The notes below the pieces were generated by a model. It saw nothing but the letters and a program-made list of their open reading frames with translations, was not told the DNA's origin and searched no databases. 64,000 nucleotides of DNA from Candidatus Gastranaerophilales bacterium (GTDB lineage Bacteria; Cyanobacteriota; Vampirovibrionia; Gastranaerophilales; Gastranaerophilaceae), in assembly GCA_944325665.1 (NCBI GenBank), contig CALVAY010000001.1, forward strand, positions 1-64,000, written 5' to 3'. The position numbers were made by a program, and so were the translations under genes. Positions 2,299 to 15,147 of the stretch are shown in pieces; positions within the stretch are counted from its first letter, which is position 1; every line of letters starts with the position of its first letter.

Positions 2299-3588
2299 CT
2301 ATATAATCGGGAAATAGTACTCTACAAGGTAGCTTGCCGCATCAAAAGGGTGCGAGAGGAATTTTAGCTCTTTGTTGTTTTTAATTGCCCAATATGTCGG
2401 AATATCAATATTAGAGCCGCCCTCTCGATATTTTAGATTGTTAAGGTTGTAGATTAATTTTTCGCATTTTGGGTCAATTAAAATCTTTCTCTGTCCGTCC
2501 ATTGACTTTATCATTGAGCAAAAGGCCGCAACCCTGTTTTTAATCGGCGGGTTGAACTGTCTAAGGTGAAATTCCACGTTTCTTTTCATCTTTTGTGCAA
2601 AAAAGTTTCTTATTAGCATATAATTTGTGTATTCGCTTACACAAGTCCTGTTATCGCCCGATGCATCGCCGTTTATGATGATTTTTCCCTTGTGGTGCGG
2701 GTATTTGCGCGCGAATTCTTCGCAAGTCTGGGTGGTTGTTGTGTTTTCAAGTACAATTTCGTCAAAGAAATAAACTTTATGATTATCAATGTGGGCTAAA
2801 ATCCAGCACATAGGATCAACGTTAAAGTCGCATGAAATGTGCAGGTCGCACCAGTCAATGTAGTTAACTTTTGCAATATTTTCTTCGCTAAAATTAGGCA
2901 CGACAAGCGGGCAATTATCTTCATCAAATTCCCCTAAAACATTCCTTTTGTAATAGTTTTCATCATATGCACTTTTGAGATTTTCGCAAAAATCCTTTGG
3001 CAGATAAATATTCTCGGTTGACGGTGCCATAACGAGCCTGTAGTTAGGCTTTTTTGTGTCATGAAAGTTTTTGTAAATCCAACCTCGTCTGCTTTGAGGG
3101 TTTGTGTGTCCAAAAATTCTATACTTAAAATTTTTCCAACTTTTTCTCTTTTTTTGCCTCATACGCCCTAAAAGCATTTTAAATGTTGCCTCGGGTATAT
3201 CTGACATTTCTTCAATTTCTGCAAAACCTAAATTAAGAGATTTTAGCTTATTTGGTTCGTCAAAGTGCCTGAAAAGTATATTTGAACCGTTTTTAAATAT
3301 TATTTTTTGCTGTGATTTAATAAAATTCCAGTCAGTGCCTTCTTGCAGTTTAAAGTGTTCAAAGTGTTCAAAATAGGCGTTAAGTGTTGTATCTCTTACA
3401 AGGGAGTAAGTTTGCGCCCCGCAAAGACCGTTAATTCCGGGGAATTTTAAACACAAAAGCGTCCCCAAAAGCGAGCCGGCCCAGGTTTTACCCGAGCCGA
3501 AACCGCCTTGATATACACAAACGTCTAACTCTTCATTATGTGGCACTTCCAAGAATTTTTTTTGAGTTCTAAGAAGTTTGTATTTCAT
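2299..3588 (-). CDS. Phage terminase large subunit
   Basis: This is the ATP-driven DNA-packaging motor and headful nuclease, about 429 residues. Walker A is GGFGSGKT near residues 28-35. A Walker B-like acidic strand is LNLGFAEIEEM. The C-terminal RNase H-fold nuclease shows the acidic motifs SCDFNVDPM and INGDASGDN. The ATG at 3588 has a GGAG site; the TTG at 3627 in the same frame lies deeper in the portal gene with no good site and was not chosen. It overlaps the portal stop by 20 nt, so the two are probably translationally coupled. The length and motifs fit terminases of P22/T7-type podoviruses. Confidence 0.9.
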   Translation of the reverse strand: MKYKLLRTQKKFLEVPHNEELDVCVYQGGFGSGKTWAGSLLGTLLCLKFPGINGLCGAQTYSLVRDTTLNAYFEHFEHFKLQEGTDWNFIKSQQKIIFKNGSNILFRHFDEPNKLKSLNLGFAEIEEMSDIPEATFKMLLGRMRQKKRKSWKNFKYRIFGHTNPQSRRGWIYKNFHDTKKPNYRLVMAPSTENIYLPKDFCENLKSAYDENYYKRNVLGEFDEDNCPLVVPNFSEENIAKVNYIDWCDLHISCDFNVDPMCWILAHIDNHKVYFFDEIVLENTTTTQTCEEFARKYPHHKGKIIINGDASGDNRTCVSEYTNYMLIRNFFAQKMKRNVEFHLRQFNPPIKNRVAAFCSMIKSMDGQRKILIDPKCEKLIYNLNNLKYREGGSNIDIPTYWAIKNNKELKFLSHPFDAASYLVEYYFPII

Positions 3589-5257
3589 TTCCTGTTTTCT
3601 CCTTTTGAGTGTTTTCGCTATTTTCAAGCAAAAATTTAGATGTGTTTTCTACTCCTAAATTAACAAGGGCATATTTAAAACACTCTTCCCAATTGATTTT
3701 GCTTGCAAGTTCGGGGATTTTAGAAAACTCGGAGATTGTTCTTTGAATTTCTTTTACTCTTGCATCCTTTAAAATAGTATTTTTTCTGTCGGAATATCGG
3801 TATATAAAGTTGCCTTCCCTTACATCCGGCGTTATTTCAATTGTTGTTGATTTGCCTTCAAACTGTGTGGAGATTTTTGAATTGCCAATCATAAAATTAG
3901 CGTTTGTTTGGGCGGTTTTTTCTAAAAGCGGTAAGATAATTTTCCTGTTAATTGAGTCAATTAAGCTGTTTAAACGTACATTTTGCCCGCCTGCGGTGTA
4001 GTTTAGCTCTGTTGCGGTTCTTTCGCCCGCACTTTGGATTTCACCCGCCATATTGTCAAAAATGCCTGTTGCACGCTCGATTTGACTTTTGAAAAACTTA
4101 ATGAAATCCCAGCCGCTAAGCATTTGGCTGAAATTCAACGGCTGCGGCATTTGCGGTAAAAGTGTCGGGTCATATTCAATTATTTTACCGGGTTTAACTT
4201 CAATTTTTCCTTGGAAAGCTCCTCTTGGTGCTAAAAATGGCGGATTTGACACAAGCTTATGCCCAAGAATTTGAGTTTGCATAATTTCATCAGTTGTGTT
4301 GAGTATGGAAAGTATTGGTGCAAGTGGGCTAAGCCCTCTTTTTGTTGTGGGGTCTTCAATGATATTTGCATAAATATATGGGCAGCTTACATAAGGATTA
4401 GGTTCGTTTTGTACTACTAAAAGCCTTCCTACAACTACAACAAGGCGGTTTTTTAAGATTTTCCCGCCCTCAAGTCTGATGTCGCCCCAGTACTTTAGCA
4501 CCTCAACAAGTCCGTCTGAAATTCCCGTCGTATCTTTGTCAAATTTTGAGCGCTCAAGTCTTTCTTTAAGCTCTTCTCTTTGTGCGTTTGAGATTGTAAA
4601 ATTCTCTTTATTCTCAAAAATTTCATTAATTTCCATCCAGCTTCTATGAATTTTAGGGCAAGAGTCCCACTTTGAGGCTCTTTGGTGGTCAAAAACAAAA
4701 TCGCATGGGTTAATAATTTTAAGGCATGCCCCTTCGTAAGTTTTTTCCTTTACTGTTTTAAAGCACTCCCAGAGCGGGTTTTGGATTTTTTCGTATAAGC
4801 TTGTTGCCACTCTTCTTGTGCGCCAGCGTGTTTCCCAGCCGACAAAAAGTGTTACTTCGCCTGTTTCAATAATGTTTTCAATAATTTGTTCAAGTTTATC
4901 CGAAAATTTCATTTTCTCAAGGGCATTGCATAAAAATATCTTGTGATTATTTGCCCTAATCGAGCTTGAATTATCACTTTCCGTAACGTCAAAAAGCCCT
5001 TCGCTGTGGGATGAAATTGCTTCTAAAAGATGCGCCTTAAGGGTCGTTGCCTGCTGCCATGCGTCGGGCAGATTTAGTCTTTGGTTGCCATACCCCTCAA
5101 AAGCGCTGCCGTATATTGCATTTCTTACATTTTGTATGTGGCTGATTTGTTTTTGCCTTTGCTCGTTTAATTTTTCGAATTTATCACAAATTTTATTTTT
5201 TATTTCATCAAGCTCAAGTTCGCTGAGTTTTTCGAATGTGTCATTTAATTTGTTCAT
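3569..5257 (-). CDS. Phage portal (head-tail connector) protein
   Basis: About 562 residues, matching podoviral portal proteins that form the dodecameric DNA gate at the capsid vertex. Supporting features are the size, position between small and large terminase genes, an N-terminal helical region (EKLNEQRQKQISHIQN), a central LPQMPQPLNFSQMLSGWDF region and the segment GIFDNMAGEIQSAGERTATE, typical of the portal wing/stem boundary where Thr-Ala-Thr-Glu precedes a long helix. The ATG at 5257 follows AGAAAGGCAAAT and is preferred over the in-frame start at 5305, which lies inside the preceding gene. No protease gene lies nearby. Confidence 0.85.
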   Translation of the reverse strand: MNKLNDTFEKLSELELDEIKNKICDKFEKLNEQRQKQISHIQNVRNAIYGSAFEGYGNQRLNLPDAWQQATTLKAHLLEAISSHSEGLFDVTESDNSSSIRANNHKIFLCNALEKMKFSDKLEQIIENIIETGEVTLFVGWETRWRTRRVATSLYEKIQNPLWECFKTVKEKTYEGACLKIINPCDFVFDHQRASKWDSCPKIHRSWMEINEIFENKENFTISNAQREELKERLERSKFDKDTTGISDGLVEVLKYWGDIRLEGGKILKNRLVVVVGRLLVVQNEPNPYVSCPYIYANIIEDPTTKRGLSPLAPILSILNTTDEIMQTQILGHKLVSNPPFLAPRGAFQGKIEVKPGKIIEYDPTLLPQMPQPLNFSQMLSGWDFIKFFKSQIERATGIFDNMAGEIQSAGERTATELNYTAGGQNVRLNSLIDSINRKIILPLLEKTAQTNANFMIGNSKISTQFEGKSTTIEITPDVREGNFIYRYSDRKNTILKDARVKEIQRTISEFSKIPELASKINWEECFKYALVNLGVENTSKFLLENSENTQKEKTGNEIQTS

Positions 5258-5267
5258 ATTTGCCTTT

Positions 5268-5681
5268 CTAAATTTTACTTGCATCAAGTCCTTCGATGTT
5301 TTCAAATACGGATTTTCTCTCTTTTAAATCTTCAAATTTTATATCTCCTAATTGCTTGCAAAGTCCGTCAAGCGCCCTTAGTGCAAGTTGCGGCTCTTTT
5401 ATTCCGTTTTCGTCTTCAAAAAAAGCGTATTCGATTATTTTTAAATATTTTTGGACAACAAAAGCCTTTGTGATTTCCAACTTTTCGACATTTTTTTTAA
5501 TAATTTCGTTTAATAATTTAATTTTTTTCGGCTCATCAAGCATTTTTGCAGCCAAAGATATTGACGCAGGAGTTTTATACCCTGCGGCTTTTGCGCTAAA
5601 TTCGGCATTGAGTGTGTTTGCGTAGTTAATCAGGAATTTTTTTTGTTTAATATTTATATTATCTTTATCCATTTTTAACAT
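5268..5681 (-). CDS. Phage terminase small subunit
   Basis: This encodes 137 residues. The N-terminus NIKQKKFLINYANTLNAEFS followed by AAGYKTPASISLAAKMLDEP is the usual start of Terminase_2-type small subunits, a helix-turn-helix that binds the pac/cos site. The C-terminal half is helical and would mediate oligomerisation. It lies 10 nt upstream of the chosen portal start. A second in-frame ATG at 5672 is a possible alternative start; neither has a strong ribosome site. Confidence 0.8.
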   Translation of the reverse strand: MLKMDKDNINIKQKKFLINYANTLNAEFSAKAAGYKTPASISLAAKMLDEPKKIKLLNEIIKKNVEKLEITKAFVVQKYLKIIEYAFFEDENGIKEPQLALRALDGLCKQLGDIKFEDLKERKSVFENIEGLDASKI

Positions 5682-5696
5682 TTCTTAATAAAGTCG

Positions 5697-5725
5697 TTGC
5701 TTTTTATGAATAATTTATGTACAAT
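5697..5725 (+). promoter_or_regulatory. Sigma70-type promoter of a candidate small RNA
   Basis: TTGCTT (5697-5702) and TACAAT (5720-5725) are separated by exactly 17 bp, with a TG just upstream of the -10. The promoter points plus, opposite to all surrounding phage genes, and is followed by a terminator within 60 bp. Confidence 0.5.
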
Positions 5726-5731
5726 AAGCAT

Positions 5732-5782
5732 GTTGTTAATGCTTCGGCTAGTATGCGAATGGGGTTTCGACCCCTTTTTTTT
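5732..5782 (+). ncRNA. Candidate phage small RNA, about 50 nt
   Basis: The predicted transcript runs from about 7 nt after the TACAAT -10 to the T-run ending at 5782. It ends in a strong hairpin (GGGGT-TTCG-ACCCC) followed by eight T. It sits in the 162-bp gap between the scaffold and small-terminase genes. The overlapping plus-strand reading frame there runs antisense into the scaffold gene and looks non-coding. The layout of promoter, short body and terminator is that of a small RNA; no known family is recognised and no target is proposed. Confidence 0.4.
5761..5782 (+). terminator. Rho-independent terminator
   Basis: A 5-bp GC-rich stem GGGGT/ACCCC closes on a TTCG tetraloop and is followed by eight T on the plus strand. 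Its direction fits the candidate small RNA, not the minus-strand phage operon. Confidence 0.65.
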
Positions 5783-5843
5783 ATCGCTTGAAACAATGAA
5801 AACACACTTTGGCAGTGTGAGCCGCCAAAGTGCGATTGTGGGG

Positions 5844-6455
5844 TTACTTATTTCTCAAAAAGTCCATGATTTGTGCGTCAATTGCCTCTTGGTTTTTTAG
5901 AAATTCTTCGGATGTCATTTTGCCTACACTTTGTGCATCAAAGTAGGGTTTGTTTTGAATACTTCCTTCAAAACCACTGTTAGCAGTGCCTTCCAGCTTA
6001 TTTAAAGTGTTTCGATTTTCTTGTTCAAGAAAATCAGCATACTTTTGATTTTTCGCACAAAAACGCTTAATTGCCTCTTGTTCCAGCTGTTTTGCCAACT
6101 GTGCAATTTTAATTAACTCCTCTAAGTCAAAATTAACATTTGAGTTTTTCAAGTAGTCTAAAAGCGTGTTTCTTTGTTCAAAAAATGTCGGGTCTTGAGT
6201 AGAAAATTCTTCAAAAACTGTCTTGGTCTGTACTTTTTCATTTGGTAAATTATTTACATTTTTAATGTTATAATTTCCCTCTTTTTGGGCATTATTATAG
6301 TACAAGGACTTAAGAAGAGTTTCTAAGGATTCTCTTGTTATTGGTGAATTTTTAGGTGATGTTTGTTGCCCGAGAGTTTTGCCGGTGAGCAATTTACGCA
6401 TAAGTTCACTATTTAGCGTACTTTGCATAAGTTCTTGATCCATATTACCTTTCAT
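5844..6455 (-). CDS. Phage capsid scaffolding protein candidate
   Basis: This encodes 203 residues, acidic and helix-rich. The C-terminus (GKMTSEEFLKNQEAIDAQIM, then a basic RNK tail) resembles the helix-turn-helix capsid-binding tail of podoviral scaffolding proteins, which often carry an M-T-x-E-E-F-x-x-N motif. Its place directly after the major capsid gene supports this. Start ATG at 6455 follows AAAGGAAGGG. The low-complexity N-terminal half (residues 1-60) has no recognisable domain. Scaffold proteins diverge fast, so the call rests mostly on position and tail. Confidence 0.6.
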   Translation of the reverse strand: MKGNMDQELMQSTLNSELMRKLLTGKTLGQQTSPKNSPITRESLETLLKSLYYNNAQKEGNYNIKNVNNLPNEKVQTKTVFEEFSTQDPTFFEQRNTLLDYLKNSNVNFDLEELIKIAQLAKQLEQEAIKRFCAKNQKYADFLEQENRNTLNKLEGTANSGFEGSIQNKPYFDAQSVGKMTSEEFLKNQEAIDAQIMDFLRNK

Positions 6456-6489
6456 CTTATCCCTTCCTTTAACCTAGTTTTACGTAAAC

Positions 6490-6511
6490 GTCCCTTCGGG
6501 GACTTTTTTTT
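6490..6511 (+). terminator. Plus-strand terminator-like hairpin
   Basis: GTCCC-TTCG-GGGAC is followed by eight T on the plus strand. Read on the minus strand, the direction of the flanking phage genes, it is a hairpin preceded by an A-run, which would not terminate but could block exonucleases. Confidence 0.5.
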
Positions 6512-6571
6512 GCGAGCGAAGCTCGAAAGCTGGTGCGACTGCACCGCTTGAGAGCAAGCGAGCTTATGCTT
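6512..6571. repeat. Cluster of short hairpins after the capsid gene
   Basis: Three tight inverted repeats follow one another: CGAGC-GAA-GCTCG (6513-6525), GGTGC-GACT-GCACC (6532-6545) and GCTTG-AGAG-CAAGC (6546-6559). With the GTCCC hairpin at 6490-6503, four stem-loops fill the gap between the capsid stop and the scaffold start. A role as a 3' stabiliser or processing site for capsid mRNA is inferred. Confidence 0.55.
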
Positions 6572-7426
6572 CTATATCTCGCATTTTAACACTGCAAGGG
6601 CTTTAGGGTTAACGGCTAATGCGCCAAATGTGTAAAGACCTCTTACAATAGTGTCAAATGACTGCTCTGCTCTTAATTGTTCAAATTTCTTTAACTGTGA
6701 AGCGTAAGTTATGCCGTCTGTCGTACCTGCCATAATAGTGTAGCTTCCATCACTTTCTAAACCTACGTTATTGCTTACAAATACGTCAAGACCCGCAATT
6801 CTTCCCACAGAACCTTCTCTTTTTGTTTTATCGGATTCGTTTGATGCGCCTGAGAACTGTTCGCAAAGCAATAATACTTCTTCAACATCAGGGTGAACTA
6901 CTACCCAGCCTTGTTTTTGAGAATTAATTGCGCCTGAGTTTTTAAGAGTTTTAGCAAGCATAACAAATTGTGAGTAAATGTTTTCGGGGGTAATATTAAT
7001 AGGTGTTTCGGCTTCACCTTCAACAATGTTTTCTTCTGCTGCTTTTGTGTTAAGTGAGAATATGTACTTGTCAATTCCTTCATCAATTGCCTTTTGGGCT
7101 TTTGTTAAAATTGTTTCCGTTAAAGGAACATTGCTTTGTGCTTGTGCGATGTCAGGAACACTAAAAGCAAAGTATAAGCTTTGGTCTAATTTTAATACAT
7201 CGCTTGTAAACTCTGCTCCTTGATAAGCAGGAAGTGTGCCTGTGTAAGCACCTGTTGTTACGGTGTTTGGCGTAGCGATTTTAATTTCTGATGTACCGTT
7301 GTCAGCTTCTGCTTGGTAATCTCTGTTTACACATTGAAGCATTGTACAGTTTTTGTCCAAACCTGCGTTAATTTTTTTACTCCAAGTGGTGACAATTAAG
7401 CTGTTGTAGTTTGTGTTTTGTGCCAT
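6572..7426 (-). CDS. Phage major capsid protein
   Basis: This encodes 284 residues, probably HK97-fold. Evidence: position between the scaffold and tail-adaptor side of the cluster; a strong ribosome site (AAAGGAAAAACC before ATG); an N-terminal segment NYNSLIVTTWSKKINAGLDK; and the motif KQGWVVVHPDVEEVLLL followed by VGRIAGLDVFVSNNV, which is characteristic of coat proteins of P22- or N4-like podoviruses (the V-x-P-x-V/E and G-x-I-x-G-x-x-V-x-x-S-N-x-V pattern). The C-terminal VNPKALAVLKCEI is also typical. It should be the most highly expressed gene here. Confidence 0.85.
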   Translation of the reverse strand: MAQNTNYNSLIVTTWSKKINAGLDKNCTMLQCVNRDYQAEADNGTSEIKIATPNTVTTGAYTGTLPAYQGAEFTSDVLKLDQSLYFAFSVPDIAQAQSNVPLTETILTKAQKAIDEGIDKYIFSLNTKAAEENIVEGEAETPINITPENIYSQFVMLAKTLKNSGAINSQKQGWVVVHPDVEEVLLLCEQFSGASNESDKTKREGSVGRIAGLDVFVSNNVGLESDGSYTIMAGTTDGITYASQLKKFEQLRAEQSFDTIVRGLYTFGALAVNPKALAVLKCEI

Positions 7427-7449
7427 GGTTTTTCCTTTCTTTTTTATCT

Positions 7450-7989
7450 CTATTCCGCTCTGTAAGCGGGGTTAAACTTTGAAAATATGTATAAATTTTT
7501 AAATTCGCCGTCTTTAAAGCACTCATTTTCAAGCATAGCTTCGCACTTAAAGCCAAGCTTTTCTAAAAGCCCTTTTGCAAGGGTTGTTTCGCCTATTATT
7601 TCAGCACTTAGTTTTCTTACCTTTAGCTTTTCAAAAAGAAATTTAAGCCCTTTTTTTGCAATTGCATACGACCCAAAACCCCAGTAAGGGCGACTTACGC
7701 AGAATGTAACTTTGCAGTCTTGCCCGAAAGGGTTTAATTTTGGCTCGTAGAGGTAAATAAAAGCCGCGAATTTGTTGCTTTTCCCGATTGTTACGTAGAA
7801 AATATTATGTTTAAATTTTTTTATAAATTTCACGAAATTTTCAAAACTTGAGAAATTTTCCTTAAAAAAGTTATCTGCAAAAAGTCTTGAATGATATTTA
7901 AAGCATAATTTTAAGAAGTTTATAAATTGTTTTCCTTTGGCATGCTTAAAATTAATTTCAAAAAAATCATGGAGTTTATTTATTTTCAT
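7450..7989 (-). CDS. GNAT-family N-acetyltransferase in prophage
   Basis: This encodes 179 residues. The acetyl-CoA-binding motif region is SRPYWGFGSYAIAKKGLKFL (a Q/RxxGxG/A-like turn), followed by KLSAEIIGETTLAKGLLEKL and GFKCEAMLENECFKDGEFKN, the pattern of RimI/RimL-type acetyltransferases. The N-terminal 60 residues are Phe/Lys-rich. It lies 23 nt upstream of the capsid gene and shares its direction, so it is part of the morphogenesis operon. GNAT genes next to capsid genes recur in phage genomes and may modify a virion or host protein; substrate unknown. Confidence 0.75.
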   Translation of the reverse strand: MKINKLHDFFEINFKHAKGKQFINFLKLCFKYHSRLFADNFFKENFSSFENFVKFIKKFKHNIFYVTIGKSNKFAAFIYLYEPKLNPFGQDCKVTFCVSRPYWGFGSYAIAKKGLKFLFEKLKVRKLSAEIIGETTLAKGLLEKLGFKCEAMLENECFKDGEFKNLYIFSKFNPAYRAE

Positions 7990-8040
7990 TATTGCCTCGC
8001 ATTTTGATTTGTGCTATTTTATGTTTGGAGAAAGTTGTTA

Positions 8041-8510
8041 TGAATAATGATGAAAAGTTTTTAATTCTGGAACAGTACAGAATTTACTCTGAAGCTAAAG
8101 AAGCTTTTACGAACAGAAATTTCCAAACAAACAGATTTTATCTGGTTTTGTCTTTAATATTGTTTTTACTTTTATACATTTTTAATGCTCTAACTCCTGC
8201 CATAATGCCGCTTGTTGTAGGCTCTGTTATTGGTATGGCTGTTTGTGTAATGTGGTGGTTAAACTTGGACAGTTACCAATTCTTAATCAAGATTAAATAT
8301 GCTAAAGTTTTGGAAGAAATGGAAACTAAATTGCCGTTTGACCCTTGCAAAAGAGAATATCAGGCGTTTGTTGAAGCAAAGAAGAACAAAAAAGCAGTTG
8401 TATTTTCTGATTTTCAAAAATTCCTTACCATTGTTCTTTTCTGCTTGTTCTTAGTAGTTTTTTCAAACAATATTACAGCAGTATTGATGAACGCTTTTAA
8501 ACTATACTAA
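8041..8510 (+). CDS. RipA-like octameric-type membrane protein (moron candidate)
   Basis: This encodes 156 residues from ATG 8041, chosen for its GGAG site 9 nt upstream; an in-frame ATG at 7992 lacks one. Three hydrophobic segments occur at about 31-50, 55-75 and 130-150. The pattern LEQYRIYSEAKEAFTNRNFQ, then a helix pair, then LDSYQFLIKIKYAKVLEEME and LPFDPCKREYQAF follows the RipA family of small membrane proteins (LEQYKLY..., SYRxLNxxKF, LPxxPYxxEW). Its stop overlaps the opposing adaptor-gene stop by 3 nt. It is opposite to the phage operon with its own TGCTATTTT -10, as expected for an accessory moron gene. The assignment is from motif memory. Confidence 0.6.
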
Positions 8511-9175
8511 CCAAAGGAGATTACAGGTGAATCTTCGTAAGTCTTTGAAGTAGTACTTCTAAGATTTGTGAGTGCTTCATAGTAAAGTGTTCTCCAGTAG
8601 TTGAATTTAACAAAAGACGGATTTGCTTTTACCTTAATCAGTGTCCCGTAAACTAATACAGGCTCAAGATAAGGCATGGGGATTATGCTTGTGTCAAATT
8701 CGCCTTCCATTACACTCTTTAAATTCCCTTCGCTATCTTGCGCATAGCAGTTTGATGCGTATATCAGGGCAATTTTTCTTTTGTATTTTATTGGGTTTGT
8801 GATTATTGAATTTTTCGTTATTGAGTAAACGTCGGCTAAATTGCTGTTTTGTGTCATTTGAGTCGGTGTAAGGTAGCGATATTTTTTTCTTCCTTCCCAA
8901 ATTGAAATTATTCTGGCTTCAAAATTTTCAACAATTGTGCTTGAATTTTCTTCTATTTCAATATCCGTTTTCTCAATTTGAAAATTCCAAAGATAAGAGC
9001 TTAAAATATCACTGTTAGTAGCATTTAGCAGGTTCAAAATTCGTTTGTGTTCGGTTTTTTCAATGGCGTCAAAGGATGATACCTCGCGCCAATTCAGTTC
9101 GTTTAAAACTTTTTTAAAAAGCTCAAAATATGTAGGTTTTTTGTGCTTTGCCCCAATTATAGAATTTTCGCTCAT
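8507..9175 (-). CDS. Head-tail adaptor / tail-tube candidate (P22 gp4 / T7 gp11-like)
   Basis: This encodes 222 residues with a textbook AAGGAGGAAAA site before ATG. It is mixed alpha/beta: an N-terminal helical part (YFELFKKVLNELNWREVSSF) precedes a beta-rich core with an aromatic C-terminal portion (KVKANPSFVKFNYWRTLYYE) and a Thr/Ser-rich end. Size and place between the propeller-type tail gene and the capsid fit the connector that docks under a podoviral portal. No diagnostic catalytic motif exists for this family, so the role is inferred from order and size. Confidence 0.5.
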   Translation of the reverse strand: MSENSIIGAKHKKPTYFELFKKVLNELNWREVSSFDAIEKTEHKRILNLLNATNSDILSSYLWNFQIEKTDIEIEENSSTIVENFEARIISIWEGRKKYRYLTPTQMTQNSNLADVYSITKNSIITNPIKYKRKIALIYASNCYAQDSEGNLKSVMEGEFDTSIIPMPYLEPVLVYGTLIKVKANPSFVKFNYWRTLYYEALTNLRSTTSKTYEDSPVISFG

Positions 9176-9191
9176 TTTTCCTCCTTATTAT

Positions 9192-9425
9192 TTATGCAAA
9201 TCCTAAAAATTCGTATTTAAAACCTCTGCAAACAAATTTGTCCAAACCGCCAAAATATATCTGAGATGCAAGCTGCTTACCTTTTTGGCTTTTTCTTAAA
9301 TCGTCAAGGAGATTGCTCGCCTGAATTTTTACACTTATGTCTGCAAAAAGAGATTTTTTAGTCCAAAATGCGTGTGCGCCAAGCATTTGTGTGTATTCGT
9401 AATTTATTTTTTTATCAGAAGTCAT
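9192..9425 (-). CDS. Small phage protein, unknown
   Basis: This encodes 77 residues, overlapping the end of the upstream tail gene by 11 nt and lying 16 nt before the adaptor gene, so it belongs to the structural operon. It has aromatic and basic clusters (AHAFWTKKSLF, LRKSQKGKQLASQIYFGGLD) and no membrane segment. Position suggests a small virion or assembly component; no family recognised. Confidence 0.6.
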   Translation of the reverse strand: MTSDKKINYEYTQMLGAHAFWTKKSLFADISVKIQASNLLDDLRKSQKGKQLASQIYFGGLDKFVCRGFKYEFLGFA

Positions 9426-10947
9426 TTAAAAGCTCCTTAAATTCTATCCCTACAAGTTTAAAACCGTCGCCTTCGTTTTCGCCTTCAATATGGAGTGCAA
9501 CAGATAAATTTGAATCAAAAATTTGCATGCTTATTGCACTTTCAAACGACCTTGCCCAAATCGGCGAGAAAGCGGTTTCAAAGCAGTTGTAGTCATTTTT
9601 TTCTTCTTCCTCGCTTGCCCAGACTAAAGAACCCTTTTGCTCTGTTTTAATGTATTCGCTATCTGTTTTAATTTCTCTTACAAAGTCTTTAGAAACGCTG
9701 AATTTAAAGCGATTTTCGCCTGTTTCATCCAGAAGAAGAGAAAAATCTTCGACAATTTTTCTCTCCGAAGGTTTACCGAGGTGAAAAAATGGGGTTGAAA
9801 AGCTAAATTTAATAGGGTTTCCGTCAAATGTCGAGCCTATATTCTCCATTAAAATTCGACCCTCATCAGTTCCGGATATTATTTGAGAAAAAACATTTGC
9901 GCTTGAGGTTATGTTTTGTTCCTCTATCCTTTTTGTCCAGCAATCATGTGCAAAGTCATAAACTAAAATATTATTGAAAAACATACTGTTTGGGTATGGA
10001 AGATAGAACCAAATTTGATTTTTCTTTTCGTAAGGGACGCAAAATGCTTCTCTCATCCTGCTTTTGTCTGCTTCTTTAAAGGAATTTTCAACATTTGCTG
10101 CAATATTTCCGCTCATCATAATCTGTGAAAGCTCTCCGACTTGAGATAATGCAAAGAGCCCGTCGTTGTTAAAGAAATATTGCTTATTGTTGCAGGTGCA
10201 AACAGCTTTAGCTCCTTGTGTTCCTTTATCGGCAAATTTTATTACGCTAAAATCATCAGGAGAAGTTCCTGAAAGCAGGTAAACACCGTCTTCTTTAAAT
10301 ATTGCAAGATTTCCGCAATAAAGAGAAAGAGATGAAATTCTTGTTATTGATGAGTGAAAGTTTGAGATGTAACCTGCGTCTTGTTCACTTTCCCAATCGT
10401 CATATCTTCCTAAAGCGCTAAAATAAAGAGTTGAGCCGCAGCCTATCCAAAGTCTGCCCGAGTAAGAACACATTGCTTCCGGTTTTATAGGGTTGCCTTT
10501 GTTGTCTTTTGCATTGAGCGGTTTAACTTTTTCTTTTGAATTGGTGTTAAAATAAAATCCTTCATTATCTCTTGCATAAAATACAACGCCGTCGAGGAAT
10601 TGCGTGAAATTTACTTCGTTTATTTCTTTTTTGTAGTCATAAATTACGCTTGCTGTCCTTGTTATGTGGCTTAAATGTTTAATTTTGCCGTCAGAGCGGG
10701 CATAGACGAAGCCTTCGGTGTTTTTGGGATATTCGCAAATCCCGACAATAGAGCATAAGTCGCTAATGTCTTCATCAAAATATGTTTTATTGCCTAACAT
10801 TCGCTCAACACCTTGATTTTTGTATAGTTCGACATTGTAGCTGTCGTCCCAATGAAGCTTTTTTGCGCCGTAACCAAGCATAATTTTTGTCGAGCTTGTA
10901 TTTATGCCGCCTGAAAAATCATAAAATGCAAGTTTATTATCGCTCAT
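9415..10947 (-). CDS. Phage tail hub/stabilisation protein, beta-propeller type
   Basis: This encodes 510 residues. Multiple strand-rich repeats resemble blades of P22 gp10 / T7 gp12-type tail proteins: FVYARSDGKIKHLS, CSYSGRLWIGCGSTLYFSAL, LYCGNLAIFKEDGVYLLSGT, TCNNKQYFFNNDGLFALSQV and NILVYDFAHDCWTKRIEEQ. Such proteins cap the portal-adaptor stack and anchor fibres. The N-terminus FYDFSGGINTSST is characteristic, since many stabilisation proteins start with a D/NFSGGLN motif. The ATG has an AAGGTGG site and overlaps the endolysin stop by 11 nt. Confidence 0.7.
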   Translation of the reverse strand: MSDNKLAFYDFSGGINTSSTKIMLGYGAKKLHWDDSYNVELYKNQGVERMLGNKTYFDEDISDLCSIVGICEYPKNTEGFVYARSDGKIKHLSHITRTASVIYDYKKEINEVNFTQFLDGVVFYARDNEGFYFNTNSKEKVKPLNAKDNKGNPIKPEAMCSYSGRLWIGCGSTLYFSALGRYDDWESEQDAGYISNFHSSITRISSLSLYCGNLAIFKEDGVYLLSGTSPDDFSVIKFADKGTQGAKAVCTCNNKQYFFNNDGLFALSQVGELSQIMMSGNIAANVENSFKEADKSRMREAFCVPYEKKNQIWFYLPYPNSMFFNNILVYDFAHDCWTKRIEEQNITSSANVFSQIISGTDEGRILMENIGSTFDGNPIKFSFSTPFFHLGKPSERKIVEDFSLLLDETGENRFKFSVSKDFVREIKTDSEYIKTEQKGSLVWASEEEEKNDYNCFETAFSPIWARSFESAISMQIFDSNLSVALHIEGENEGDGFKLVGIEFKELLNDF

Positions 10948-11422
10948 AATACCACCTTACTTTGTTTCTGATGTAATCTCCGACTTCATCCTTATTAAGC
11001 TTTGGCTCATAAGGTATAAAGGTTATGTCAATTTTGCCCGCACTTGTTGAATTTGGGAGCATTTTTCCAACTTCATAGTGCGTCATAACACATTGTTTTG
11101 TAGGAGTCAGTTGATATTTTTTTAAAAGTGTTGCGCAATATGCAAACATAGCCTCGGCTTGAACTCTTAAAAACGGGTAATTCCCTTGGCTGGTCGGGCT
11201 TTTGTAGCCATACATCGCGCAAAGTGCTATTCCTATTGAGCCTGTGTTATAACCTCCGCAGTGAGCCGCATATTTTCCGTCCTGACAATTTAAGTTATCC
11301 TCCGGATTATATTTGCCCTTTATTATTTGCCCGTTTCCGTCGGATAAAAAATGATAATGTTCAATATCAACGGATGAGGGAGTATATTTGCCCCCACTCC
11401 AGTGAAGTATTATCCTCTTCAT
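10937..11422 (-). CDS. Phage endolysin, N-acetylmuramoyl-L-alanine amidase (Amidase_2)
   Basis: This encodes 161 residues without a signal peptide. Zinc and catalytic motifs of the T7-lysozyme/PGRP fold are visible: IILHWSGG (first His ligand), DIEHYHFLSDGNGQIIKG, YAAHCGGYNTGSIGIAL (second His), MTHYEVGK (late conserved His) and the DITFIPYEP end. It would cleave the amide between muramic acid and L-Ala of the peptide stem for host lysis. A strong AGGAGAAAATA site precedes the ATG. Its start overlaps the LuxR-type regulator by 56 nt. A lysis gene at the head of the structural operon is unusual. Confidence 0.88.
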   Translation of the reverse strand: MKRIILHWSGGKYTPSSVDIEHYHFLSDGNGQIIKGKYNPEDNLNCQDGKYAAHCGGYNTGSIGIALCAMYGYKSPTSQGNYPFLRVQAEAMFAYCATLLKKYQLTPTKQCVMTHYEVGKMLPNSTSAGKIDITFIPYEPKLNKDEVGDYIRNKVRWYYER

Positions 11423-11639
11423 TATTTTCTCCTGATATAATATCCAAAGCGAATTTTCCGTAATTATTCAAAAATTTAGAAATAGCTTGTGTCCTGTTTT
11501 GAGCTCTGTATTTTAAGTAAATTCTTGACAGATGATTTTGTACCGTTCGAACGCTCAAGCCCAAAGTATTTGCAATAGCACGGTCTTTCAGCCCGCTGCA
11601 AAGCAAAGACATAACCTGAAGTTCTCGCTTAGTTAGCAT
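11367..11639 (-). CDS. LuxR-type HTH regulator (no receiver domain)
   Basis: About 90 residues from the ATG at 11639, which has a GAGGGG site; an in-frame start at 11687 would add 16 residues. Residues 1-60 are a GerE/LuxR helix-turn-helix: LTKRELQVMSLLCSGLKDRA, IANTLGLSVRTVQNHLSRIY. No receiver or ligand domain is present, as in stand-alone phage activators. It is positioned to control the phage late operon starting just downstream. The C-terminus (ISKFLNNYGKFALDIISGEN) overlaps the endolysin start. Confidence 0.8.
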   Translation of the reverse strand: MLTKRELQVMSLLCSGLKDRAIANTLGLSVRTVQNHLSRIYLKYRAQNRTQAISKFLNNYGKFALDIISGENNEEDNTSLEWGQIYSLIR

Positions 11640-11696
11640 TGTTTTTTCCCCTCTATTGCAACTGAATTTATTCATATCAACAACCAAAAGAAAAAA

Positions 11697-11846
11697 TTAA
11701 ATGTATTTTCCACCCTTAGTTTTTGTTTTTAAGGTTTTATTTAAAATAAATTTGAAAAGCTGCTTAAAAACAAAAAACAATATGCTCTTTGGTGCGAATT
11801 TACTCAAACGCAGAACATTTGACAATGCTTCAACAATTTTTTTCAT
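11697..11846 (-). CDS. Small basic hydrophobic ORF (49 residues)
   Basis: The ATG complement is at 11844-11846 after an AGAGGAATTGAG site, and the TAA complement is at 11697-11699. The predicted protein has a hydrophobic centre (SILFFVFKQLFKFIL) and a Lys/Thr-rich tail (NKTLKTKTKGGKYI). It is the first gene of the minus-strand run that continues with the LuxR regulator and endolysin. Size and composition would fit a tiny membrane-active protein such as a holin, but this is speculative; it could be non-coding. Confidence 0.4.
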   Translation of the reverse strand: MKKIVEALSNVLRLSKFAPKSILFFVFKQLFKFILNKTLKTKTKGGKYI

Positions 11847-11906
11847 TAAACTCAATTCCTCTATTTAAAACTTTAAACGGCTTAAGGGGAAATTTAACCG
11901 TTGTGT

Positions 11907-11923
11907 TGTATATTTTATATACA
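11907..11923. promoter_or_regulatory. Inverted repeat in promoter region of the phage run
   Basis: TGTATAT-TTT-ATATACA is a perfect 7-bp inverted repeat centred about 70 bp upstream of the 49-residue ORF on the minus strand. It contains TATA-like -10 candidates, so it could be both promoter and operator. No other copy was noticed. Confidence 0.4.
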
Positions 11924-11994
11924 CATAATAGCAGACAATTTTTTTTTGAAAATCGCTAGAAATACTTGAGTAATTTTAACTATTTTACTTATAA

Positions 11995-12038
11995 AAAAAC
12001 GCTGAAAAACTTTGTGGTAAAAGTAATTCAGCGTTTTT
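11995..12038 (-). terminator. Terminator downstream of the pseudopilin gene
   Basis: The arms AAAAACGCTGAA and TTCAGCGTTTTT form a 12-bp perfect stem with a 20-nt loop, ending in T-runs on either strand. It lies 60 bp after the pilin stop on the minus strand and marks the border between chromosome and phage region. Confidence 0.75.
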
Positions 12039-12096
12039 ATAAAATCTAAATTATTGAAAGATAAAATTATAATTTTACAAAACTTAGTAATTAAGT

Positions 12097-12708
12097 TTAC
12101 TCGTAATATTCCGAGCAAGATGGTAAGGGTGTAGGAGAGGTGGCCGAATTGTTACTGTAACCACTGTGCATTATAAATACGTCAACGAGATTTAGTTTAT
12201 CCCAATTGTTTATATTGTTTAAGTCATAAATACCGCAATTCCAAAGCGAGCCGCCACTTTTGCATGATGATGTTATACAGTTAGTGCTGTCTGTTTGACT
12301 TGTATTTGGTCCTAAATCTCCATTTACATCTATTAAAATATCAAAATTGCCCCATCTTGTAGTATTTCCATAGCTATATGCTATACCGTCTGCCGTGTAA
12401 TACCAGCGTCCAGACTTCTTAACAATATTTAAATGTTTAGCCAGTTTATCCATAAAATAAAATTTATCAATTTGATTATTTGTATCTTGTGGTATTCGTT
12501 CACTAAAATCAACCCCGTCTTCTATTTGAGCCAGTGTCATTGCCTGTGAGATAACTGAGGCGGCTTTAAGTGCTCCCGTTTTGTACTGTTGCTGTTCTGT
12601 TCTTATAATTAATGAAGGAATTGTTAGAGCGGCTACAACCCCGATAATGACTAAAGTGATTAACACTTCGGCTAATGTAAAGGCGTTGTTTAAAGTTTTT
12701 GTTATCAT
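12097..12708 (-). CDS. Type IV pilin / type II secretion pseudopilin
   Basis: This encodes 203 residues. A prepilin-type N-terminus is present: a short leader MITKTLNNA then FTLAEVLITLVIIGVVAALT, with Glu at +5 after processing before Phe, followed by the hydrophobic stalk helix. The C-terminal globular part contains four Cys that could pair, and segments ILIDVNGDLGPNTS and NLVDVFIMHSG typical of the pseudopilin type abundant in Gastranaerophilales, where a calcium-site-like DVNG-D appears. It should be cleaved by a prepilin peptidase and built into a pseudopilus. It is divergent from the XRE gene across a palindrome. Confidence 0.85.
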   Translation of the reverse strand: MITKTLNNAFTLAEVLITLVIIGVVAALTIPSLIIRTEQQQYKTGALKAASVISQAMTLAQIEDGVDFSERIPQDTNNQIDKFYFMDKLAKHLNIVKKSGRWYYTADGIAYSYGNTTRWGNFDILIDVNGDLGPNTSQTDSTNCITSSCKSGGSLWNCGIYDLNNINNWDKLNLVDVFIMHSGYSNNSATSPTPLPSCSEYYE

Positions 12709-12739
12709 TTTCTACCCCACAAAGTAATGCAAATAATTG

Positions 12740-12767
12740 TCAGGATGTCTATATATAGACATCCTGA
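12740..12767. promoter_or_regulatory. 28-bp perfect palindrome, likely operator
   Basis: The half-site TCAGGATGTCTATA is followed at once by its exact reverse complement with no spacer. It sits between the divergent pseudopilin and XRE genes and overlaps the likely -35 region of the latter. Its placement fits the binding site of the adjacent dimeric HTH repressor, controlling itself and perhaps the pilin. Confidence 0.65.
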
Positions 12768-12794
12768 AACTATTTTATCATTAGAATTCTATGT

Positions 12795-13070
12795 ATGCAA
12801 CATGTCAATCATAAAAAAGCCGCAATAATTTTTGAAGCTCTTTCAAAAATAATTATAAAAAGACGCGAGGAGCTTAACAAATCACAAAGAATATTAGCAG
12901 ATGAATTTGGTTTTCCGCGTTCCTTGCTCTCAAGGCTGGAAAACTGCATGAGCGAACCCAAGCTTATTTCAATTTGGACAATTGCAGAGGCACTTGAACT
13001 TAAGCCTCATCAACTTATTAAGCTCATAGAAGAGGAGCTTGGAGAAGGTTTTAGTTTGATTGAAAAGTAG
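12795..13070 (+). CDS. XRE/Cro-type HTH regulator
   Basis: This encodes 91 residues. The helix-turn-helix spans about residues 15-70: LSKIIIKRREELNKSQRILA, DEFGFPRSLLSRLENC and PKLISIWTIAEALELKPHQL, the standard Cro/CI fold. A TAGAAT -10 at 12782-12787 is 7 nt before the ATG, so the mRNA is probably leaderless. It is the obvious candidate to bind the upstream palindrome. It could be a host gene or a leftover immunity repressor of the adjacent prophage. Confidence 0.85.
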   Translation: MQHVNHKKAAIIFEALSKIIIKRREELNKSQRILADEFGFPRSLLSRLENCMSEPKLISIWTIAEALELKPHQLIKLIEEELGEGFSLIEK

Positions 13071-13071
13071 C

Positions 13072-13356
13072 TTAAAAAGGAACAGTGTTTTCTTGAATAA
13101 ACTTGAAAAGTTGGTACTCATCTTGCTTTTCGGGCGGGTTTTCTTTTTCTCTTTCAAGACGTTCTTTTTCCTCTTGTGTTTCAGAGGTCAGCTCAATCAT
13201 TTTTTCGCCTTCGCGTCTGCCAAAGACGTTAAATTTAAACCCGTCAATTAGCCCGTAGTTTGTTTCGGTTTTGTAAGTACCAATGTTTACCGCACCTGAG
13301 GGCAAAATTGAGAATAAAAATAAAAATAAAAAAACTTTAGCCAGACACTTTTTCAT
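13072..13356 (-). CDS. Small secreted protein, unknown
   Basis: This encodes 94 residues with a signal peptide (MKKCLAKVFLFLFLFSILPS, cleavage near the following GA-V). The mature part starts with NIGTYKTETNYGLIDGFKFN and ends in a highly charged region (ETQEEKERLEREKENPPEKQ). It converges with the XRE gene, whose stop is 2 nt from its own. No family recognised. Confidence 0.6.
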   Translation of the reverse strand: MKKCLAKVFLFLFLFSILPSGAVNIGTYKTETNYGLIDGFKFNVFGRREGEKMIELTSETQEEKERLEREKENPPEKQDEYQLFKFIQENTVPF

Positions 13357-13371
13357 ATTACTATTTTAGCA
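13357..13371 (-). promoter_or_regulatory. Extended -10 promoter, leaderless start
   Basis: On the minus strand TGCTAAAAT (13371-13363) is followed by 6 nt and the ATG of the secreted-protein gene. There is no room for a ribosome-binding site. Confidence 0.6.
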
Positions 13372-13429
13372 TATCAGCTTCATTATAACAAACGATGTAA
13401 AAAAAACTTTTTGGGTATTTAATATATAT

Positions 13430-13753
13430 ATGTATGACTACGATTTTGATCAAGAAGATAAAGAGCTAAAAAAAGTTGGTCTTGAACTTATGTTTATGAC
13501 CAATGAAAAATGTGCTTCCGATTTGGGGATAAGCGCAGTTGAGCTTTCTAAGCTTCTTGATATGAATATAGATGTAGTTAAGAAAAAATTGAAAATTTTA
13601 TATGAGCATAATATTGTTAGAGTTATAGGAATTAATCCTAAATTGTGGAAGTTTGATGAATATTCTTTTCAGAGAATGGACGAGGATGACCCTGTTTATC
13701 AGCTTTTGTGTTCATTTGATGATGTAGATTTTGACAGGTATTTTCAATATTGA
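13430..13753 (+). CDS. Winged-helix-like small protein, unknown
   Basis: This encodes 107 residues, very acidic at both ends. Residues 25-65 (EKCASDLGISAVELSKLLDM, NIDVVKKKLKILYEHNIVRV) look like a winged-helix DNA-binding core. Its stop overlaps the TTG start of the methyltransferase gene by 4 nt, so the two are probably co-translated. It may regulate the operon or act with the RNA methyltransferase; no named family. A TTTAAT hexamer 6 nt before the ATG hints at leaderless expression. Confidence 0.65.
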   Translation: MYDYDFDQEDKELKKVGLELMFMTNEKCASDLGISAVELSKLLDMNIDVVKKKLKILYEHNIVRVIGINPKLWKFDEYSFQRMDEDDPVYQLLCSFDDVDFDRYFQY

Positions 13754-15147
13754 TTAAAGCAGGCGATATAGTTGAATTAGAGATTGAAAAACTTTTATAT
13801 CAGGGCTCTTCCTTGGCTCGTTATTACAGCGATGAAACCCCTTCGGGTTTTAGCGTTTTTGTCTTTGGCGGAGCAGTAGAGGATAAGCTGAAAGTTAAGA
13901 TTTTAAAGGTCAACAAAAGCTACGCAACGGGCGAAATTGTCGAAATTGTTAAACCTTCAAAGTATAGAAAGAAGCCTTTTTGTCCTCTTTTTAACGCTTG
14001 CGGCGGCTGTTTTTATCAATATTTGGATTATGATTTTTTAGTTGAGCAAAAAAATAATATGCTCAAAGAAAGTTTTTCAAAACTTGATTATGATGTAGAA
14101 ATTTTAAATCCTATTAAAAGCCCCAATAAAGAAGGTTACAGGCGAAAAATTCAATACAGGGTTTCTCAGACTAAAAATTCAAAAAGACTTCTTGTGGGTT
14201 ATTACAAAGAAAAAAGCCACGATATTGTAAATATTAAATATTGTCCTATTCAGCCTAAAATTGCCGATGATTTGGCACAGTTTTTAAGGGATAATTGGGC
14301 TTTGGGTGCTTATGTTGAAAAGACCCACAAGGGGCTTTTAAGAGCCTTTATATTAAGGCTTTCTTCTGATTTAAAAAGTGTTTTAATCACCTTGGTTTTA
14401 AATTCAAATCTTGAAGATTATCTAAAAATTGAAAATGATGTTTTGGATTTTGCTCAAAAAATAACTTCTAAATTTCAGGTCGTTAAGGGCGTTAATGTCA
14501 ATTTAAATCCTAATAAAACAAATTTAATTTTTTCTTGTGATTTTAAAAATGTCTTAGGAGATGAATATATTGTCGAGAACTTAAAATCTCAAGACGGCAC
14601 TGTAAAATCCTATAAAATATCTCCCGAGAGCTTTTTTCAGGTCAACCCGGACTGTGCCTCTTTAATTTTTGATGAGGCTAAAAAATATATTGATGATAAT
14701 TCAACAATCCTTGATGCTTATGGCGGAGTCGGTACAATAGGAATTTATCTTTCGGATAAGGCAAGGAAAATATATCTTGTTGAGGAAAACGAAAGTGCAA
14801 CTAAAAACGCAAAGGAAAATTTCAAACTTAATAACTGCAAAAATTACGAAGTGTTTTTGGGTGATGCAAAAGAGTGCTTTAGAAAATTTTTGAAAGAAAA
14901 GAAAACCTTTGATACGGTTATCCTTGACCCGCCAAGGGCAGGATGCGACAAAGAGGCACTGGATTTAATTTCAAAAATGTGCAATAAAATAATCTATATA
15001 AGCTGCAATCCGCAAACTCTGGTGAGGGATTTAAACTACCTCTTTGAGCTTAATTTTAAAGCAAAGCAAACAAGAATGGCAGATATGTTCCCTTATTCTT
15101 ATCATCTTGAAAGTATTACTCTTGTTGAGAAGGTGCAAGATGTGTAA
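13750..15147 (+). CDS. rlmD: 23S rRNA (uracil-5-)-methyltransferase, RlmD/RumA family
   Basis: This encodes 465 residues. An N-terminal TRAM domain (residues 1-65) is followed by the iron-sulfur cysteines CPLFNACGGC (C78, C84, C87) and a SAM-binding Rossmann domain (ILDAYGGVGTIGIYL). The catalytic motifs are FFQVNP, ILDPPRAGCDKEAL (nucleophile region) and YISCNPQTLVRDL. It methylates uracil C5 of 23S rRNA, or of tRNA in some family members; the exact uridine cannot be told from sequence. The TTG start overlaps the upstream stop, and its own stop overlaps mtaB by 8 nt. Confidence 0.88.
   Translation: MIKAGDIVELEIEKLLYQGSSLARYYSDETPSGFSVFVFGGAVEDKLKVKILKVNKSYATGEIVEIVKPSKYRKKPFCPLFNACGGCFYQYLDYDFLVEQKNNMLKESFSKLDYDVEILNPIKSPNKEGYRRKIQYRVSQTKNSKRLLVGYYKEKSHDIVNIKYCPIQPKIADDLAQFLRDNWALGAYVEKTHKGLLRAFILRLSSDLKSVLITLVLNSNLEDYLKIENDVLDFAQKITSKFQVVKGVNVNLNPNKTNLIFSCDFKNVLGDEYIVENLKSQDGTVKSYKISPESFFQVNPDCASLIFDEAKKYIDDNSTILDAYGGVGTIGIYLSDKARKIYLVEENESATKNAKENFKLNNCKNYEVFLGDAKECFRKFLKEKKTFDTVILDPPRAGCDKEALDLISKMCNKIIYISCNPQTLVRDLNYLFELNFKAKQTRMADMFPYSYHLESITLVEKVQDV

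Follow-up and report, generated by a model that had tools for sequence, protein, structure and literature searches.

A palindrome between a pseudopilin gene and an XRE gene as a predicted regulator operator in Gastranaerophilales

Introduction

Gastranaerophilales are uncultured gut relatives of cyanobacteria. In the genome of Candidatus Gastranaerophilales bacterium (accession no.: GCA_944325665.1) a perfect 28-bp palindrome lies between a pseudopilin gene and a divergent gene encoding a small XRE-type regulator, and the question arose of what this palindrome does. The stretch analysed comprises the first 64,000 nucleotides of contig CALVAY010000001.1 and is called the window hereafter. The original prediction was a dedicated switch that controls one pseudopilin, perhaps left by the prophage next door. 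Some of the papers on Gastranaerophilales, Melainabacteria and Vampirovibrionia mention type IV pilus genes only in general, and no description of pilin control in Gastranaerophilales or of an XRE-operator-pilin module was found in the open-licence PubMed Central literature.

Results

The palindrome and its conserved core

TCAGGATGTCTATA is followed, without a spacer, by its own exact reverse complement; the predicted 28-bp palindrome with abutting halves was thus found exactly as described, between the pseudopilin and the XRE gene (Table 1). It is the sole perfect zero-spacer palindrome with arms of at least 9 in the window and is single-copy in the 1.65-Mb genome, up to 3 mismatches being allowed; a dispersed repeat element was therefore rejected. 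From base composition, perfect symmetry over 28 bp is expected 7e-4 times per window and 0.018 times per genome, and 40 first-order Markov simulations of the window contained no 28-bp perfect palindrome. Therefore, a chance origin was rejected, in agreement with the original prediction. The divergent arrangement, with the pilin gene on the minus and the XRE gene on the plus strand, was confirmed as well, but the intergenic region measures 86 bp (12709-12794) and not 90 bp.

Table 1 Features of the pilin/XRE locus in the window.
Feature	Position	Strand	Basis
Two-gene cassette (pilin, O1/O2, XRE)	12086..13071	.	missing together from G001 and G009
Pseudopilin, 203 aa, prepilin N-terminal motif AFTLAEVLITL	12097..12708	-	N_methyl; GFxxxE domain above cut-off
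Shine-Dalgarno-like GGGG of the pilin gene	12715..12718	-	sequence
Perfect 28-bp palindrome, operator O1; outer arms specific to the species	12740..12767	.	predicted operator
Conserved 16-bp operator core TGTCTATATATAGACA	12746..12761	.	genus comparison
Predicted extended -10 of the pilin promoter, TGATAAAAT	12772..12780	-	predicted
Predicted XRE -10, TAGAAT, 7 nt before ATG	12782..12787	+	predicted
Half-site O2 (TTCTATGT) abutting the XRE start codon	12787..12794	+	family comparison
XRE/HTH_3 regulator, 91 aa, predicted leaderless	12795..13070	+	HTH_3, AlphaFold model
Weak -35-like TTGCAT of the pilin promoter, within the XRE start and 17 bp from the pilin -10	12795..12800	-	predicted
Recognition helix, residues 42-49 (RSLLSRLE)	12918..12941	+	AlphaFold; residue 42 varies with operator position 7

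Conservation in genus relatives is confined to the inner 16 bp, with the halves TGTCTATA and TATAGACA; each arm's outer 6 bp are private to the species of the window. The site shared by the genus, TGTCTATANATAGACA, matched exactly at one place per genome, just upstream of the XRE orthologue, in 11/11 genomes, and the exact core was found in none of the four genus genomes in which no XRE orthologue was detected (G001, G007, G009 and G012). In G007 and G012 the contig stops at the locus, so that the absence of XRE there may be an assembly gap only, and G007 has a core with one mismatch on another contig. Sites with two mismatches were discarded, since they were about as frequent as a reversed control pattern. 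Absence of the palindrome from close relatives that keep both genes was named in the original prediction as evidence against it; such absence was seen for the outer arms but not for the core, which is kept in all 10 other genus members with an XRE orthologue. A pilin start adjoins in 8 of these, and in G004 and G006 the contig ends before any adjoining pilin start could appear. The 16-bp core is most likely, judged by its conservation, the operator of the adjacent XRE regulator.

The operator across the family

Homologues of XRE were present in 45 of 58 related genomes (E<=0.001) and in 102 of 239 family genomes (E<=1e-12); many have an upstream palindrome, but of a sequence other than the 28 bp of the window. 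Removal of duplicates and of two hits that lack a start (L081 and L147) from 162 hits left 92 distinct rows of XRE plus upstream DNA. Within the region searched (-70 to -30 relative to the XRE ATG), O1, which reads TTCTATATATAGAA or near it in other genera, was found in 57 family members with its centre 41 bp (30 members) or 42 bp (27) before the XRE start codon in every case. Distant XRE clades carry other palindromes, of the CGTTCGTGAACG, TTCTAATATTAGAA and TGTATA types. On a tree of 88 rows (the incomplete rows L132 and L134, which were also excluded from the O2 and Shine-Dalgarno counts, and one row each of L013 and L021 are absent), the operator type requires 6 changes over the 73 rows with an assigned type, a count that leaves aside the other 15 rows and rests on few columns and many open forks.

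A scan starting from DNA, independent of protein similarity, was made with O1, 22 to 30 bp and TTCTATNTATGCA (O1-spacer-O2-ATGCA) in genome_contigs, which holds one genome for each of 84,980 species. It gave 49 matches in 47 stretches, and 48 of the matches open an XRE frame of 89-91 aa; the sole exception (L228) opens a frame of 17 aa. The 46 distinct XRE proteins obtained are 39-67% identical to that of the window. By title, the stretches belong to Gastranaerophilales (32), Melainabacteria (3), a cyanobacterium (1), unspecified bacteria (9) and two others, Clostridiaceae and Muribaculaceae, which are possibly mislabelled bins. As a separate observation, O1 and O2 are apparently fused by deletion in L015 (genus g18, near 1501), where a single GGTTCTATAT stands directly before the XRE ATG and adjoins the pilin Shine-Dalgarno sequence.

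The XRE protein and its recognition helix

The XRE protein contains an HTH_3 domain (E=1.4e-7, 31.8 bits against a curated cut-off of 23), and its AlphaFold model consists of five helices (pLDDT 90.5) with residue 42 as the first of the recognition helix. This residue is Arg in 14 of the 57 O1 members, 13 of which have G at operator position 7, counted from the dyad, in both halves and 1 in a single half; of the 43 members with another residue, none has this G in both halves and 3 have it in a single half. Comparison thus reveals, at the level of sequence, that the operator letters covary with the recognition helix, albeit through few independent events, since 13 of the 14 Arg42 rows lie within one clade of 15 rows; the row outside this clade (genus g8) bears a half-way operator. 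Residue 42 presumably aligns with Gln28 of the 434 repressor and operator position 7 with the outermost base of its operator. Gln28 of the 434 repressor reads the outermost base of the 14-bp operator, the seventh from the dyad.

The XRE protein of the window shares 66% identity with those of 10 other genus members, whose mean identity to one another is 93.6%, whereas for five flanking proteins the values are 65-88% (window vs genus) against 74-90%. Horizontal replacement from another genus was considered and rejected, because the tree places the protein, on a long branch, with its own genus (support 94/96, below the starred level of the tool); rapid divergence or an exchange between genus members is the likelier explanation.

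O2 and the predicted promoters

A half-site, O2 (TTCTAT..), abuts the XRE start codon in 56/57 O1 members but in only 3/33 other homologues, two of which carry near-variants of O1. In 44/57 members the best -10-like hexamer of the XRE strand ends 7 nt upstream of the ATG; the XRE -10 was found in 43/57, as compared to a mean of 13.2 and a maximum of 23 with shuffled spacers. On the pilin strand, 53/57 have an extended -10-like match (shuffled mean 15.4, maximum 25), the best match starting 13-14 nt from the XRE ATG in 51/57 and including the TG in 49/57. Both controls comprised 200 shuffles, and they overstate independence because the relatives share ancestry. Neither promoter in the window has a convincing -35, and no hexamer of the -35 consensus lies at 15-19 bp from the -10 of XRE. 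A Shine-Dalgarno-like motif precedes the XRE start in 0/57 O1 members and is present in 22 of 24 pilin genes with an ATG at 55-120 bp from that of XRE. The predicted -10 elements place the XRE transcript start at about 12794-12795 and that of the pilin near 12765, at the margin of O1. These promoter-like elements suggest that the XRE transcript is leaderless and that the pilin promoter overlaps and diverges.

The pilin partner

The pseudopilin carries the prepilin motif (N_methyl 23.8 against a cut-off of 21.2; TIGR02532 24.3 against 16.3) but scored below every equivalog cut-off for a specific pilin class (GspG, ComGC, ComGE, PilA). In each genome's own DNA, a divergent gene with a prepilin motif was found at 37 of 53 O1 loci, in 11 of 16 genera. 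The 53 loci are the 57 minus four with less than 300 bp of upstream DNA, two of which show a pilin; L122 (interrupted motif) and L193 (FTPAELLIAL) are pilin-like by eye and were left uncounted, as calls were made by motif. In the match set from genome_contigs, which overlaps the 53 loci, 28 of 42 loci with more than 250 bp have a pilin. The genome of the window has 15 N_methyl matches in 1.65 Mb, so that, if one gene per kilobase is assumed, about 1% of neighbours should be pilins by chance. The notion of a dedicated switch is thus well supported by the pairing of site and orthologue, the fixed distance, the covariation with the helix and the pilin at 37 of 53 loci, and that of a switch for one pilin by a single O1 site beside 15 N_methyl matches.

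At 16 of the 53 loci no pilin was detected by motif, and at 4 of these the divergent gene encodes a HAD-like protein (DLDGVLN), indicating that XRE is not tied to pilins as such. Proteins of this kind, of about 113-125 aa, recur as a second partner of O1-type XREs (L017, L130, L135, L139 and one L230 match). Complete partner pilins span 95 to 875 aa, and a tblastn search (1e-5) with the 203-aa pilin of the window gave no match in the other 14 genus loci. A pilin partner was also found at 7 of 8 loci in the g1/g38/g53 branch of a second XRE clade, which has operators of the TATCACGTTCGTGAACGTGATA type, the eighth locus having 210 bp of context; no pilin was seen at three related loci in other genera (g33, g15 and g20).

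Several further observations concern the pilin genes. The partner pilins of L036, L120, L138 and L148 have in-frame inserts in the leader, directly ahead of the prepilin motif or within it (AFTL...insert...AFTLAEVL), and a number of these resemble dispersed repeats; the prepilin leader is normally cleaved, which may explain the tolerance of inserts. In 8 of the 10 genus relatives with XRE (G013, G008, G003, G011, G014, G006, G004 and G005) the contig ends 0.1-1.5 kb from XRE on the pilin side, as if large pilin genes break assemblies. Contig C10 of the window's genome (L065) carries a pilin of more than 530 aa divergent from an XRE of a different type (the pair lies at 979-1335 on the minus strand and from 1462 onward on the plus strand), and no O1 is visible in the gap of this pair.

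The cassette and its surroundings

In G001 and G009 the same flanks are present, with phage-like genes and a LuxR-type gene on one side and the gene of a small secreted-type protein on the other, but pilin, O1, O2 and XRE are all missing. Compared to G001, which has 7 bp at this place, the window contains 986 extra bp, which begin immediately beyond the pilin stop codon and finish immediately beyond that of XRE; in G009 an unrelated spacer of its own takes this place. Since pilin, O1 and XRE are missing jointly while both flanks stay, they form one removable cassette, and the difference may reflect either gain or loss. Other genera carry the cassette in other surroundings.

The phage-like cluster (2299-11422 of the window) encodes large and small terminase subunits, a head-tail adaptor, a major head protein and an endolysin. 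The head protein occurs once in each of 14 of the 15 genus genomes. The terminase occurs in 13 of the 15 (main copies 90-95% identical) and in 15 of 35 genera searched, is better conserved than a neighbouring tRNA_U5-meth_tr-family protein (65%) and has one TAG inside its frame in G003, G008 and G013. The cluster looks vertically kept and is perhaps a domesticated or gene-transfer-agent-like element. Near the start of the window, 200-2023 encode four tandem paralogues of a membrane-type protein of about 150 aa with KLINLTKLTTSNLLSLLGYPC-like starts in common.

Discussion

The pairing of operator and XRE, their fixed geometry, the covariation, the pairing with pilin genes and the presence or absence of the whole block emerge from the comparison of sequences. 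We consider it likely that the palindrome is operator O1 of the adjacent XRE protein, which would repress the pilin gene and autoregulate via O1 and O2. An XRE dimer would bind the 16-bp core. If the extended -10 is predicted correctly, O1 lies at the pilin transcript start, from about -2 to +26, and since it covers this start, bound XRE would block the pilin promoter; repression of the pilin gene, taken by itself, is held to be fairly probable. The XRE promoter would point in the opposite direction, with the message beginning at or near its own ATG, and O2 at this start would be a weaker site that limits XRE at high level. The XRE -10 and the extended -10 of the pilin promoter are only 1 bp apart, so that polymerase at one would exclude the other. 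Indirect positive feedback via the overlapping divergent promoters, as in Kpn2I, is conceivable, a net positive feedback being rather unlikely. The outcome would be a small self-adjusting switch for one pilin, borne as a two-gene cassette.

The sign of autoregulation could also be the reverse. XRE might be mainly an activator that, like lambda cI, activates its own promoter from O1 and represses the pilin gene, and the circuit would then be bistable, with differences from cell to cell. The fixed centre of O1 at -41/-42 fits such a role, because about -41.5 from the transcript start is a position used by contact activators, and so does the lack of a -35 consensus hexamer at the XRE promoter. 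Residue 32, however, is an Arg that is invariant in 47 sequences (SQR motif) and aligns with the Glu that follows SQ in C.BclI and C.AhdI, which makes classical contact activation of the XRE promoter less likely even with O1 centred near -41, and O2 is a half-site only. In favour of activation, C proteins act as activators at one site and as repressors at a second (PMC4824078), and in Kpn2I (PMC6237814) contact-free positive feedback arises where the C protein represses one of two overlapping divergent promoters and thereby raises the other. In sum, a mainly activating XRE appears doubtful. A different reading concerns the outer arms: only the 16-bp core would be functional, and the perfect 28 bp would have arisen when template switching corrected an imperfect inverted repeat. 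Mutations of this type have been described for quasipalindromes (PMC7202029, PMC3820800), the probability that the extra arms are symmetrical by chance is about 4e-4, and the right outer arm resembles those of relatives by eye whereas the left does not; selection for tighter binding would explain the perfect 28 bp equally well. This origin has somewhat less than an even chance and is compatible with an XRE operator. The perfection of the outer arms is a local trait that was possibly selected or made by template switching.

At the RNA level, the palindrome might form a hairpin at the 5' end of the pilin transcript that stabilises the message or tunes its translation. The predicted leader in the species of the window does fold at -19.9 kcal/mol (z -4.9), but those of two genus relatives reach only -7.5 kcal/mol (z -0.6) and -5.3 kcal/mol (z -0.3), conservation does not extend to the outer arms, and the core follows the XRE helix instead. 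The hairpin was rejected because the fold was not conserved in the two relatives, and we regard it as very unlikely. Least probable of all is that the site is a relic of the control region of a neighbouring prophage, as the original prediction had suggested in its last part. Phage-like genes do lie just left of the locus, and XRE is weakly similar, below the cut-off, to the phage repressors RstR and DicA. However, the phage-like genes persist in G001 and G009, which lack the cassette, other genera have it in other surroundings, and viral contigs gave no match to two DNA patterns. Regulator and operator therefore do not travel with phage genes as in a prophage immunity region, and this part of the prediction had to be abandoned.

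With XRE as a repressor acting at O1, a compact two-gene switch with a readable operator code would make pilin control testable in E. coli reporters, and the natural matched pairs of regulator and operator would be a ready set for studying the evolution of HTH specificity. The locus would also show a controller-protein-like circuit serving a surface structure instead of restriction. A more far-reaching idea, which we put forward as speculation and judge improbable on the whole, is that Gastranaerophilales carry mutually insulated XRE-operator-pilin cassettes with operator codes of their own. Promoter overlap and repression would make each a two-state switch, cells would differ in their surface pilins without DNA rearrangement, and cassettes would be gained, lost or re-armed with new pilins as units.

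Among known regulators, the nearest solved relatives of XRE in a profile search were C.BclI (E=9.6e-9) and C.AhdI (9.8e-6). C.BclI and C.Esp1396I also topped the Foldseek list, where the fold match was moderate (best E 1e-3), followed by ClgR, DdrO, SinR and P22 c2. C proteins (C.BclI, C.AhdI, C.Esp1396I) and XRE have the small XRE/HTH_3 fold and a palindromic site in the promoter region of their own gene in common, and a leaderless message, which is predicted here, is a common property of C proteins (PMC4824078). Unlike C-protein systems, which have two C-box inverted repeats, the locus has one full site and a half-site at the start codon, and the acidic residue of the SQE motif is replaced by Arg. 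In type II restriction-modification circuits (Kpn2I, Csp231I) the partner is a methyltransferase or nuclease, whereas here it is a pilin. Among the 8 window proteins scanned at 9415-15147 no restriction endonuclease or DNA methyltransferase was found, the only methyltransferase being the tRNA_U5-meth_tr family protein; therefore, XRE was not filed as a restriction-modification controller.

Operators of the lambda/434/P22 type combine divergent overlapping promoters, an AT-centred dyad and a repressor-sized HTH protein, and there are three of them. The locus in the window likewise has divergent overlapping promoters, as predicted, an AT-centred dyad and a repressor-sized HTH protein, but a single dyad, and the cassette is not tied to phage genes. 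MrpJ of Proteus, a fimbrial XRE regulator that controls motility genes, resembles XRE in being a small HTH regulator encoded with a surface-fibre gene; it belongs to a chaperone-usher operon, whereas XRE forms a divergent gene pair with prepilin-type proteins. The best reading is that XRE works like a C-protein or phage-repressor switch.
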